Of a DNA stretch of 64,000 bases, positions 1,461 to 51,361 are shown piece after piece (position 1 is the stretch's first letter; every line of letters starts with the position of its first letter). The position numbers were made by a program, and so were the translations under genes. The notes under the pieces are model-generated. The model was not told the origin of the DNA and searched no databases. It worked only from the letters and a program-made list of their open reading frames with translations. Origin of the DNA: Caballeronia insecticola (GTDB lineage: Bacteria > Pseudomonadota > Gammaproteobacteria > Burkholderiales > Burkholderiaceae); assembly GCF_000402035.1 (NCBI RefSeq), contig NC_021287.1, forward strand, positions 62,001 through 126,000. The letters run 5' to 3'.

Positions 1461-2759
1461 ATGCATCGCATAACCACCACCGGCCGCGTCAACCTCGGTC
1501 ATCTCTTCTGGCTGCGCTCGCTCGCGATCATCGGCCAGTTGCTGACGATCACGGTCGTGCAGATTTTCTACGGCGCGAAGCTTCCGCTGCCCGCGATGCT
1601 GCTCGTCATCGCGCTCGAAATGCTCTTCAACGGGCTCACGTGGCTGCGCGTGTCGCGGGCGCGGCCCGAGACGAACCTGGAGCTGTTCGGGCAGATGTGC
1701 GTCGATCTCGGCGCGCTCTCGGCGCTGCTGTTCCTCTCCGGCGGCGCGACCAATCCGTTCGTGACGCTTTATTTGCCGTCGCTTGCGATCGCCGCCGCCG
1801 TGCTGCCGTGGATGATGATGGGCTGCCTCGCGCTCTTCGCCGTCGCCTGTTATGCGCTGCTCAGCTACAACTACGTGCCGCTCAACATCGAGAATCCGGC
1901 CAATCTGTTCGATTATTTCCGCATGGGGCTGTGGGTCAACTTCATGGTGAGCGTCGGGCTGATCGGCTGGTTCGTCGCGCGCATGTCGCGGGCGCTGCGC
2001 GTGCGCGACGCCGCGCTCGCCGAAGCCCAGCAGCGCCATCTGCGTGACGAACGCGCCGTCGCGCTCGGCGTGCAGGCGGCGACCGTCGCGCACGAGATGG
2101 GCACGCCGCTTTCGACTATCGCGATGTTGTCCGAGGAACTGCGCGATTCCGCCGCGCACGATAAAAACCTCGCGCCCTACGCCGCCGATTTCGAACTGCT
2201 CGAACAGCAGATGGCGCTGTGCACGTCGGCGCTGGCGCGTTTGCGCAGCCGCGCGACGGGGCCGTCGAGCCGGCAGGCGCTCGACGAATGGCTCGCGAGT
2301 TTCATCGAGCAATGGCGGCTGCGTCATCCGCAGGTGAAGTTTGCGCAGACCGGCACGACGCCGGCGGATGCGGCAATCGACGATCCGGTCGCCGTCGGCC
2401 AGATTCTCACGATCCTTCTCGACAACGCCGCGCGCGCGAGCAGCGAATCGGTGACGCTGCAGGCGACGGCCGAAACCATCGACGGCAGGAACAGGGTGCG
2501 CTTCGACGTCTGCGACCGCGGCCCGGGCATTCCGCCCGCGTTGCGCGCGTCGCTCGGCGCGGGGCCGGTGGACAGCACGCAGGGCGGACATGGCGTCGGG
2601 CTTTATCTGGCGTTCGCGGCGGCGGCGCGCCTGAACGGTTCGATCGAACTCGTCGATGGCGAGCCGCGCGGCACACGCGCGGTGTTGCGCCTGCCGAACC
2701 GGGGCATGGCCGCCGTTGCCGATCAGGCGGCCCGGACTGAACGAAGCGGCGCCGCCTGA
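1461..2759 (+). CDS. regB: RegB/RoxS-type redox sensor histidine kinase
   Basis: Membrane-bound sensor kinase of the RegB/PrrB/RoxS family, which senses the redox state of the quinone pool and phosphorylates RegA. The first ~175 residues are hydrophobic, with about five or six membrane segments. They contain the family-diagnostic quinone-binding heptad GGATNPF at 94-100. The H-box AHEMGTPLSTI places the phospho-accepting His at 211, and a Cys at 254 lies where RegB has its redox-active cysteine. A C-terminal HATPase domain shows DNAARAS and DRGPGIP. The 432-aa length is typical. regA follows 44 bases downstream, so the two form an operon. Confidence 0.92.
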   Translation: MHRITTTGRVNLGHLFWLRSLAIIGQLLTITVVQIFYGAKLPLPAMLLVIALEMLFNGLTWLRVSRARPETNLELFGQMCVDLGALSALLFLSGGATNPFVTLYLPSLAIAAAVLPWMMMGCLALFAVACYALLSYNYVPLNIENPANLFDYFRMGLWVNFMVSVGLIGWFVARMSRALRVRDAALAEAQQRHLRDERAVALGVQAATVAHEMGTPLSTIAMLSEELRDSAAHDKNLAPYAADFELLEQQMALCTSALARLRSRATGPSSRQALDEWLASFIEQWRLRHPQVKFAQTGTTPADAAIDDPVAVGQILTILLDNAARASSESVTLQATAETIDGRNRVRFDVCDRGPGIPPALRASLGAGPVDSTQGGHGVGLYLAFAAAARLNGSIELVDGEPRGTRAVLRLPNRGMAAVADQAARTERSGAA

Positions 2760-2803
2760 ACTCGAATTCGGGGACGCCGGGGTTGAATCACGGAGAAAAA
2801 GGC

Positions 2804-3346
2804 ATGAGCGATACCAACTTTCTGATCATCGACGACGACGAAGTTTTTGCGGGCATCCTGGCCCGTGGTCTTGCACGGCGCGGCTACACGCCGCATCAGG
2901 CGCACGACGGCGACGAGGCGCTGAAGCTCGCCAACCTGCACAAGTTCGGCCAGATCACGGTCGATCTTCACCTGGGCAACGATTCCGGCCTGCGCCTGGT
3001 TTCGCCGCTGCGCGATCTGCAGCCCGATGCGCGCATTCTGGTGCTGACCGGTTATGCAAGCATCGCGACGGCGGTGCAGGCGGTGAAGGACGGCGCCGAC
3101 AACTATCTCGCGAAGCCGGCGAACGTAGAGACGATTCTCTCCGCGCTGCAGGAAGAGGCGAGCGAGCAGACGGCCGAGGAAGCGATTGAAAACCCGACGC
3201 TGCTCTCGGTGGCGCGGCTTGAATGGGAACATATTCAGCGGGCACTCGCCGAAAACAACGGCAATATTTCGGCGACGGCGCGCGCGCTCAACATGCATCG
3301 GCGGACCTTGCAGCGCAAGCTGGCCAAGAAGCCGGTGCGTCAATAA
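2804..3346 (+). CDS. regA: RegA/RoxR-type response regulator
   Basis: Cytoplasmic partner of the upstream redox kinase. The receiver domain begins IIDDDEVF and the phospho-acceptor is Asp54, in VDLHLG. The C-terminal ~45 residues carry a Fis-type helix-turn-helix (NISATARALNMHRRTLQRKL), nearly the invariant RegA DNA-binding helix. At 180 aa it matches the family. The ATG at 2804 is preceded by GGAG about 8 bases upstream; a TTG seven codons earlier is less likely. It probably controls aerobic/microaerobic respiration genes, as RegA does in other proteobacteria. Confidence 0.93.
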   Translation: MSDTNFLIIDDDEVFAGILARGLARRGYTPHQAHDGDEALKLANLHKFGQITVDLHLGNDSGLRLVSPLRDLQPDARILVLTGYASIATAVQAVKDGADNYLAKPANVETILSALQEEASEQTAEEAIENPTLLSVARLEWEHIQRALAENNGNISATARALNMHRRTLQRKLAKKPVRQ

Positions 3347-49894: not shown

Positions 49895-50082
49895 GAGATC
49901 TCCCGTGATCTTATGGTCACACGATGTTTCGTTTTTGGTTGTTCGTCGAATGGCGTGGCGCGCAGCAAGCGGCGCGCCCGGCGCGGCTAGATTAGCGAAT
50001 GCGTTCGCTGCCGACAACGATTCGATCGGCATACGCTTATGCGCGACTTGCCCAAATGATGTGCGCCGGGCTAAACTTGCGC

Positions 50083-50190
50083 CGTCTTTGGGGAGTAGCC
50101 TTCCTTCGCGTGCGAAGGAGAACGCGTCAACATCCTCGGCTCTGCTGCCGTGGCGCGTTCGACCGAAACGGTTTGGCGAGACCATCGATG
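50083..50190 (+). promoter_or_regulatory. yybP-ykoY manganese riboswitch
   Basis: The invariant core of the yybP-ykoY class is present in order. GGGGAGTAGCC is at 50090-50100. A perfect P2 hairpin (TCCTTCGC with GCGAAGGA) lies at about 50102-50119. Next come CGTCAACATCCTCG at about 50124-50137, a variable arm, and GGCGAGACC at 50175-50183. The ends pair to close P1 with a small internal mismatch. This class senses Mn2+ and controls manganese efflux or homeostasis genes. It lies about 160 bases before the antiporter start. Confidence 0.82.
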
Positions 50191-50206
50191 CGCTATGTCG
50201 TTCCTG

Positions 50207-50252
50207 GCCGGACGGCGCTTGGCGCATCGTGGTTCGCTCGACGTCCGGCTTT
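50207..50252 (+). promoter_or_regulatory. Candidate expression-platform hairpin
   Basis: An 8-bp GC-rich perfect stem (50207-50214 with 50242-50249) is followed by TTTGG, right after the riboswitch core. It could act as a conditional terminator that is relieved or formed on Mn2+ binding. The short T run leaves the mechanism open. Confidence 0.4.
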
Positions 50253-50350
50253 GGAATCATCGTGTCCCCACAACTACAACATCCTCTTCTTTCGCGCGCG
50301 CATGTGTGCCTGCCCGCGCTCCTTTCTCGTCGATTCATGCGAGGTGCCGC

Positions 50351-51361
50351 ATGACGATGCTCTTCCTCGAACTCGCGCTGATGCTCGCGATCATCCTGAT
50401 TGCATCGGAGTTGTTCACAAATGCGCTCGAACATCTCGGCGAACGGCTCGGCATATCCGAAGGCGTGACCGGATCGCTTTTCGCGGCGGTCGGCACGGCG
50501 TTACCCGAGACGACGGTGCCGATCATCGCATTGCTCGGCGGCACGACCAGTCGCGCGGTCAACGAGGAGATCGGCGTCGGCGCGATTCTCGGCGCGCCGC
50601 TGATGCTCGCAACGCTCTCCACGTGCCTCATGACGGTCGCGATTCTCAAGTCGCGCGGCTTGCGTGGCCGGATCATGCCGGAGCGCAGCGGCTTCACGCG
50701 CGATCTCAACTTCTTTTTGATCGCATTCCTGATTGCCTGTGCCGCGATGTTCGTGCCGCATCATGCGTGGGAAGTGCGCGCGTTGTTCGCGGTCGGGCTC
50801 GTCGCGCTTTATATCGTGTATGTGATTTCGACCTTCAAGGCGTCGGCGAGTCTCGTCGAAAGCGGGCATGCGACGGAGGCGCCGGACGCGTTGTTCGTCT
50901 CGCGCGTCGGATTGCCGACGACGCTCGGCACGATCATCCTGCAATTCCTGATCGGCATCGTGTTGCTGGTGGGCGGCGCGAAAGGCTTCATTCACGGCGT
51001 GGAAGGCGTGTCCAGTGCGCTCGGGATTTCCGCGTTGCTGCTGTCGCTCATCATCATTCCGATTGCAACCGAATTGCCGGAAAAGGTGAACAGCATTCTG
51101 TGGGCGCGCCGCGGCAAAGATACGCTCGCGTTCGGCAATATCACCGGGGCGATGGTGTTTCAGGGCACGTTGCTGCCGGGCATCGGCATCATGTTGACGC
51201 CGTGGGAACCGCGCGTGGAAGTGCTGACCGGCGTGCTGATCACGCTCGCGGCCGCGGCGTGGCTGCGCTTCAACGCGAAGGCCAATGGCGTTGCGCTCTG
51301 GGCGTTGTTGGGGAACGGCGTGTTGTATGCCGTTTATCTCGCGCTGACGCTCGGGCGTTGA
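50351..51361 (+). CDS. CaCA-family cation antiporter under a manganese riboswitch
   Basis: A 336-aa sodium/calcium-exchanger-family membrane protein with about ten transmembrane helices. The two inverted alpha-repeats are visible: GSLFAAVGTALPETTVPI near 42-59 and LIIIPIATELPEKVNSILW near 238-256, each with the conserved Pro-Glu that binds the cation. The ATG at 50351 follows GAGG. The upstream yybP-ykoY riboswitch argues that Mn2+ (or Mn2+ with Ca2+) is exported, unlike the usual Na+/Ca2+ assumption. A duplicated GGGCGTTGAAACT straddles the stop codon. Confidence 0.87.
   Translation: MTMLFLELALMLAIILIASELFTNALEHLGERLGISEGVTGSLFAAVGTALPETTVPIIALLGGTTSRAVNEEIGVGAILGAPLMLATLSTCLMTVAILKSRGLRGRIMPERSGFTRDLNFFLIAFLIACAAMFVPHHAWEVRALFAVGLVALYIVYVISTFKASASLVESGHATEAPDALFVSRVGLPTTLGTIILQFLIGIVLLVGGAKGFIHGVEGVSSALGISALLLSLIIIPIATELPEKVNSILWARRGKDTLAFGNITGAMVFQGTLLPGIGIMLTPWEPRVEVLTGVLITLAAAAWLRFNAKANGVALWALLGNGVLYAVYLALTLGR

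Follow-up and report, generated by a model that had tools for sequence, protein, structure and literature searches.

A manganese riboswitch predicted to act through a short leader ORF on a probable exporter gene of the CaCA family in Caballeronia insecticola

What does a manganese riboswitch control when the first reading frame behind it is not the transporter gene in whose leader it lies? This is the situation in a 64,000-nucleotide stretch of contig NC_021287.1 of Caballeronia insecticola (hereafter, the window), in which an Mn2+ riboswitch precedes a gene for a membrane protein of the CaCA family and a short open reading frame (ORF) stands between the two.

Riboswitch, crossing helices and leader ORF

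An Rfam scan of the whole 64-kb window (cmscan) placed the Mn2+ riboswitch RF00080, comprising the aptamer and part of the expression platform, at positions 50076 to 50245 of the forward strand, with 72.2 bits against a cut-off of 45 (E = 6.7e-17). The match spans the full model (1-177), and RF00080 is the sole Rfam family above its own cut-off. An earlier note on this DNA had proposed a yybP-ykoY riboswitch from three sequence cores, all of which are present in the window, and had asked for a covariance-model search; with a score so far above the cut-off, the identification is confirmed, and the element is the one described there, except that the start given in the note (50083) lies a few bases inside the model match (50076). 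Judged by its sequence, the RF00080 element at 50076-50245 is predicted to bind Mn2+ and to change expression in response. The structures from L. lactis and X. oryzae, as reported in the excerpted text of PMC6754395, show Mn2+ sensed by an adenosine (A41/A48); the equivalent adenosine, matched by sequence to the L3 letters given there, is at 50132 (+) and is invariant across the 15 rows of our leader alignment. A possible promoter (TTGCCC, 18 nt, TAAACT; 50048-50077, +) was read by eye, as was a TAnAn element that recurs in most rows of the alignment; the consensus scan returned no promoter that satisfied its criteria.

Two helices lie between the aptamer and the leader ORF. P_A (50181-50233, +; arms 50181-50192, with 50185 bulged, and 50223-50233) has 11 pairs, 93.9% of cells paired and 5 pairs changed on both sides; its double-sided changes were matched by 4 of 500 shuffles and its covariation score by none of 500. 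P_B (50206-50250, +; arms 50206-50214 and 50242-50250) has 9 pairs, 100% of cells paired and 2 pairs changed on both sides, a double-sided count reached by 160 of 500 whole-structure shuffles, with a covariation score reached by none of 500. The sequences of the helices, their covariation and their crossing are direct observations: P_A and P_B cross and cannot coexist as ordinary helices. Within the first arm of P_A, on its 5' side, lies the 3' strand of the switch helix P1. In P1, 91.7% of cells are paired, with no covariation beyond shuffles, and it is described as the helix that Mn2+ stabilises in this riboswitch class (PMC6754395). Because the P_A arm contains the P1 strand, P_A would be the form without Mn2+, and P1 together with P_B the form with Mn2+; which of the two is on is presumed from the fact that switches of this class are known to be induced by Mn. 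The earlier note had placed the riboswitch in the leader of the exporter gene and had regarded a hairpin behind the aptamer as a possible expression platform. The riboswitch does lie in that leader, and the hairpin is real, being one of the two crossing, covarying helices; what has to be revised is the neighbour of the platform, which adjoins the leader ORF (50262-50354), not the CaCA start.

The leader ORF (50262-50354, +), which does not figure in the earlier note, begins with GTG, runs for 30 codons and ends with a TGA (50352-50354) that overlaps the CaCA ATG as AUGA. Its Shine-Dalgarno-like site, found by sequence and alignment, is GGAA at 50253-50256 (+), mostly GGAG in Burkholderia and Paraburkholderia, and P_B ends a few bases before it; a second such sequence, GAGG at 50341-50344 (+), lies within the leader ORF and would serve the CaCA gene. 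For comparison, 80 orthologous loci were used, the best 80 of 528 relatives among named genomes, which makes the set a sample of near relatives; the nearest named relative within it is Burkholderia (Caballeronia) peredens, with a CaCA protein 97% identical. The window and 78 of these loci gave 79 leaders, L094 and L096 being left out for want of an aptamer; in L089 and L090, where the listed gene start is 13 codons late, the overlap was scored at the checked true ATG. In all 79 leaders, a start codon lies 10 to 14 nt after P_B, and the frame it opens closes at the overlap with the CaCA start. The start codons at this fixed place are 26 ATG and 53 GTG, or 28 and 51 if the first in-frame start is counted instead. 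On the simplest reading, translation of the leader ORF would be needed, through coupling to the CaCA start; given that the CaCA gene has its own GAGG, the coupling need not be obligatory.

Folding of the naked leader with an energy model that contains no Mn2+ favoured P_A (-98.5 kcal/mol vs -92.5 with P_B forced). With P_B forced, the GGAA of the leader ORF was fully paired (unpaired probability 0.00-0.02), and in the free P_A fold it was partly open (0.03, 0.04, 0.49 and 0.99). In this respect the model speaks against P_B as the on form. When P_B is open, its 3' strand could pair with the leader-ORF site and hide it, by TCCG/CGGA in 36 of the 79 leaders, by TCC/GGA in 31 and by neither in 12. 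A GGAA-UUCC pairing extending P_B was discarded as a conserved element, for it is broken in several relatives, though formed by the energy model. The script for P_A and P_B gave clear pairs in three of six other leaders (L121, L165 and L002) and missed or misplaced helices in the other three (L161, L162 and L166). An intrinsic terminator after the aptamer was likewise dismissed, no U-run being visible by eye behind P_A or P_B, and a terminator-like site at 50304-50319 is no more than chance provides (1 found; shuffles 0.6, sd 1.0).

We think it rather likely that the locus carries a translational, possibly Rho-assisted, Mn2+ riboswitch that induces a CaCA Mn2+ exporter through the leader ORF; at this locus we infer the export of Mn, the coupling and which way the switch works. 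In the absence of Mn2+, P_A would form by invading P1, and the start of the leader ORF would be poorly used. When Mn2+ is present, the aptamer and P1 would be stabilised, P_A blocked and P_B formed, and ribosomes would begin at the neighbouring leader-ORF start. Those ending the leader ORF at AUGA would presumably restart at the exporter gene, and translating ribosomes may also cover the C-rich leader. The exporter would then remove excess Mn2+ alongside MntP, a second riboswitch-preceded exporter encoded elsewhere in the genome.

A division of labour in which Rho does most of the work is possible, if somewhat improbable in our estimation: Rho-dependent termination within the C-rich leader would be the main control of expression, Mn2+-enabled translation of the leader ORF would shield the RNA, and the CaCA gene would use its own site. 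Escherichia coli mntP is reported to use Rho at its Mn riboswitch (PMC11647493), a premature stop in the leader without Mn is what the authors of the work on BP3410, the CaCA gene of Bordetella pertussis, propose (PMC8546581, in the portion consulted), and the leader ORF holds 34 C and 21 G in its 93 nt, with the GAGG of the CaCA gene ready for independent initiation. Shielding alone, however, would require no overlap of stop and CaCA start in a single register, yet this is what all 79 leaders have.

Ion choice and distribution of the probable exporter

The gene behind the leader ORF (50351-51361, +) encodes a CaCA-family membrane protein of 336 aa, a probable Mn2+ exporter. It scores 111.6 bits with PF01699 (cut-off 24.9), with two Na_Ca_ex stretches, so that the earlier description of a 336-aa CaCA gene as the target downstream of the riboswitch holds. 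An AlphaFold2 model built from 46 sequences (pLDDT 84.2, pTM 0.84) has as its best solved match the CAX structure 4kpp (TM 0.76) and compares with NCX_Mj (3v5u) at TM 0.64, both normalised by query. The two Na_Ca_ex repeats and the CaCA fold place the protein in the CaCA superfamily; the NCBIfam models of calcium/sodium antiporters stay below their cut-offs (TIGR00367, 85.5 vs 179.65; PRK10734.1, 51.1 vs 432).

Nine residues are invariant in the 46 sequences (A50, E53, T240, E241, E244, N263, A267, M268 and Q271, window numbering), an alignment that includes Bordetella and Achromobacter proteins, BP3410 itself being absent. The residues of a BP3410-type site, A50, E53, E241, E244, A267 and Q271, are all found in the window protein, and the Bordetella/Achromobacter branch, about 30% identical to it, has the expected ion-site residues in common. 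Relative to NCX_Mj, in whose ion-site numbering the residues are given here, S51 is replaced by A, S210 by E, S236 by A and D240 by Q, and both glutamates are retained. At the positions of S210, S236 and D240, all 48 subfamily members read have E, A and Q, vs S, S and N in four canonical relatives (L180, L182, L184 and L187), these being the readable ones among 12 outside CaCA control loci, of which the other 8 gave wrong frames, fragments or divergent sequences. A motif filter for GTALPE left out 5 of 42 subfamily loci (L144, L149, L151, L152 and L154); read separately, these begin repeat 1 with ATAL/MPE and keep E241, A267 and Q271, and three of them, as well as L153, have L instead of M at position 268. 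The protein tree that includes outside CaCA proteins is poor and does not root the two branches. The E/A/Q residues may be a sign of changed ion choice, short of proof.

In B. pertussis, according to the part of PMC8546581 consulted, the CaCA protein BP3410 is controlled by a yybP-ykoY riboswitch; Mn raises its mRNA level, calcium leaves its expression unchanged, and cells without working BP3410 hold about five times more Mn, export being shown by ICP-MS. BP3410 is also listed as a YRBG-type exporter in the excerpt of a review (PMC9936198). Its genus, riboswitch and annotation suggest that it belongs to the Bordetella/Achromobacter branch. By analogy, the window CaCA protein probably exports Mn2+. 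The idea in the earlier note that a CaCA target would suggest Mn2+ export was right, having been demonstrated for BP3410 and extending to this locus by analogy, but not new, because the combination of an Mn riboswitch with a CaCA exporter had already been published (PMC8546581, as excerpted).

Among the 80 orthologues fetched, 77 have an RF00080 element on the same strand just upstream of the CaCA gene; in L093 both aptamer cores stand where expected upstream of the gene, and L094 and L096 are CaCA orthologues without a riboswitch. Gene and riboswitch occur together in 24 of 25 genomes of the same genus (own included), many of one species and several identical to named ones among the 80 loci; the 25th (G002), 60% complete, has neither. 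A sample of 250 genomes of the order contains the CaCA subfamily in 60 and RF00080 in 97. Subfamily gene and RF00080 element lie side by side in 10 of these 60 (G000, G012, G031, G414, G486, G487, G526, G565, G596 and G625), and no element was found just upstream of the gene in 50, in an RNA search with stricter filters that lose weak matches and with pairing by coordinates, by hand. Among 369 genomes of the class, the subfamily is present in 36; in 34 of the 35 other class members RF00080 is absent anywhere at E <= 0.01, and in the remaining one the site is on a different contig from the CaCA gene. Riboswitch and exporter thus go together in a few lineages of the Burkholderiales but not generally, and given the 50 of 60 order members and 34 of 35 class members without it, Mn export need not hold subfamily-wide. 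Inspection by eye of 14 upstream regions of the 42 loci revealed no common regulatory element in riboswitch-less members. In three loci without the riboswitch (L112, L122 and L126), a TATAAT-like element is seen by eye some tens of bases upstream of the CaCA start, which would fit Mn-independent expression from a short leader.

It is improbable, in our view, that the protein exports Ca2+ (or exchanges Na+ and Ca2+) and is induced by Mn2+ since an excess of Mn2+ disturbs calcium. Such a function would agree with the name 'sodium:calcium antiporter' that many relatives bear in databases, with the yybP-ykoY riboswitch described for MgtA, an Mn2+/Ca2+ ATPase of Streptococcus pneumoniae, and with the majority of sampled subfamily members that have no Mn riboswitch. 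BP3410, however, reduces the Mn content of cells and shows no induction by calcium, in the portion of PMC8546581 consulted, and the E, A and Q of 48/48 subfamily members are set against the S, S and N of the four canonical relatives.

Most riboswitches of this class in the order precede another exporter. The 6.96-Mb genome of C. insecticola has two RF00080 sites at E <= 1, that of the window and one of 48.4 bits that precedes mntP (PF02659, 189.7 bits); no match to UPF0016 (PF01169) above its cut-off was found in this genome. Of seven riboswitch loci examined, five precede UPF0016, one MntP and one CaCA; among 20 further sites in the order, 17 precede UPF0016-like ORFs, recognised via the E-x-G-D-K-T motif, not via a Pfam search; of the last three, one is at a contig end, one has a core that was not found and one has a different gene downstream.

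Several sites are unusual in themselves. At L172 (G486:C56), the gene behind an 88.2-bit Mn riboswitch encodes a Phenol_MetA_deg protein (PF13557, 42.6 bits), not a known exporter. Paraburkholderia sp. DHOC27 (L093) has two divergent, back-to-back Mn riboswitches, at 2407-2589 (-) and about 2700-2820 (+), one before a UPF0016 gene and the other before CaCA, the Rfam scan listing the UPF0016 one only. In Paraburkholderia sp. BL9I2N2 (L100), a 72.5-bit riboswitch at about 2746-2900, downstream of a tRNA gene, is without the GGGGAGTAG core and is possibly a decayed aptamer ahead of an intact CaCA gene and leader ORF. At L003 (G040), behind a 93.4-bit riboswitch, a UPF0016 ORF is open for 87 codons and continues in another frame, which would reflect either a frameshift or an assembly error.

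Conservation and possible origin of the leader frame

Sixteen different leader-ORF distances occur, between 50 and 137 nt, and all of them leave the same remainder on division by 3; the ORFs are 17 to 46 codons long. Parsimony on the FastTree protein tree gives 23 changes of leader-ORF length, every one of them in whole codons; assuming indels random in length, the nominal chance that all 23 keep the frame is about 1e-11. As a control, the spacing between aptamer core and leader start is spread over the three modulo-3 classes (39, 20 and 19 of 78 leaders, L100 being out for want of a core). Stops number 0 of 2128 codons in frame vs 25 and 12 of 2128 in the other two frames. An open frame might also arise by chance from GC-rich sequence and related genomes: as those two low counts show, stops are scarce whichever frame is read; the leaders, moreover, share ancestry, and the chance value computed on the tree is a nominal one; with 23 length changes all in whole codons and control distances that shift freely, we consider such an origin very improbable.

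Differences between leader ORFs are even over the three codon positions (1707, 1708 and 1511), and those between CaCA genes concentrate at the third (6903, 3094 and 20260); these sums are pairwise counts, not independent, from 61 of the 79 leaders, in equal-length groups of five or more, with CaCA pairs differing at a quarter of sites or more excluded. A kept frame with even codon positions indicates that the frame is conserved, not the peptide. Because the frame is kept without conservation of the peptide, the act of translating the leader ORF would matter and the peptide itself would not. That the peptide acts in its own right, for instance as a stalling sensor, as leader peptides and uORFs are described to do in other systems, is hardly credible with lengths of 17 to 46 codons and substitutions spread evenly over codon positions.

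Where might such a frame have come from? At UPF0016 riboswitch loci, the start of the exporter follows P_B closely, in most cases 160-185 nt downstream of GGGGAGTA. In one genome of the order (G414, locus L121), in which the riboswitch precedes a CaCA gene, a 62-codon ORF occupies this usual UPF0016 start position. Over its first 34 residues it shares 41-65% identity with the UPF0016 proteins encoded at riboswitch loci, and its N-terminus matches 21 of 21 UPF0016 proteins (best E 2.4e-11, in a library of these 21). The next frame contains a 20-residue match to UPF0016 residues 35-54 (60% identity, E 0.014), no better than chance by its E value (0.009 on the wrong strand in the same search) and of note because its register continues immediately from residue 34. 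Instead of EIGDKT, the motif is DIGNKT, and the decayed ORF, too, ends in an AUGA overlap. The remnant matched no Pfam family and no PDB chain and was recognised only by direct comparison with the 21 UPF0016 proteins.

Because the leader ORF of L121 begins with UPF0016 remains at the place where UPF0016 genes normally start, we propose, as a tentative reading in which our confidence falls a little short of even, that the riboswitch changed its target: a UPF0016 gene would have decayed to a short leader ORF, free in its sequence, that was kept only for coupling to a newly arrived CaCA exporter. L121, the single case behind this reading, would represent an earlier stage, and the leaders of Burkholderia, Caballeronia and Paraburkholderia its worn-down end state. 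The 79 Burkholderia-type leaders contain no UPF0016 remains (best 1.5 bits; best E 0.009, on the wrong strand), and a look for further stages of decay among the 4 genomes in the family of G414 found no other with the CaCA gene. In the Bordetella-type branch, locus L113 (G031) has, by eye, a 40-codon ORF ending in AUGA.

Comparison with known systems

The pairing of an Mn riboswitch with a CaCA exporter, shown in one pathogen, is here extended by sequence to many soil- and plant-associated bacteria. Like the window locus, the BP3410 locus, as described in the excerpted text of its report, places a CaCA (YRBG-type) Mn exporter behind an Mn2+ riboswitch, and it comes from the same taxonomic order. 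The Bordetella/Achromobacter loci L115-L118 differ in that, by eye, the CaCA ATG itself comes after P_B; at L115, some AUGA-ending frames begin inside the aptamer. A search of the open-licence literature returned no report of a coupled leader ORF at an Mn riboswitch, and, as far as this literature shows, the ORF described here would be the first coupled uORF described for this riboswitch. It also illustrates that the true first target may be overlooked when a locus is described simply as a riboswitch in front of a gene. If our interpretation of L121 is true, the UPF0016 remnant is a visible intermediate in the hand-over of a riboswitch between transporter families.

The closest parallel to the coupling is uPPE2-ppe2 of Mycobacterium tuberculosis, where, according to the part of PMC11260477 consulted, a riboswitch-controlled uORF overlaps the gene start as AUGA and termination-reinitiation takes place. 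That system differs in its ligand (B12), in being an OFF switch and in the gene controlled, and the same excerpt describes no displaced gene. The arrangement typical of ppe2, a uORF after the expression platform whose stop overlaps the gene start, is present in 79 of 79 leaders, and expression of the CaCA gene is predicted to depend on translation of the leader ORF in the same manner. S. pneumoniae mgtA (CaxP) is likewise described as having an Mn riboswitch before a Ca2+/Mn2+ transporter and differs in that the transporter is a P-type ATPase. Finally, the UPF0016 (MneA) and mntP riboswitch loci share with the window locus the same aptamer and a first start codon just after P_B; there, however, it is the exporter itself that starts after P_B, whereas at the window locus it is the leader ORF.
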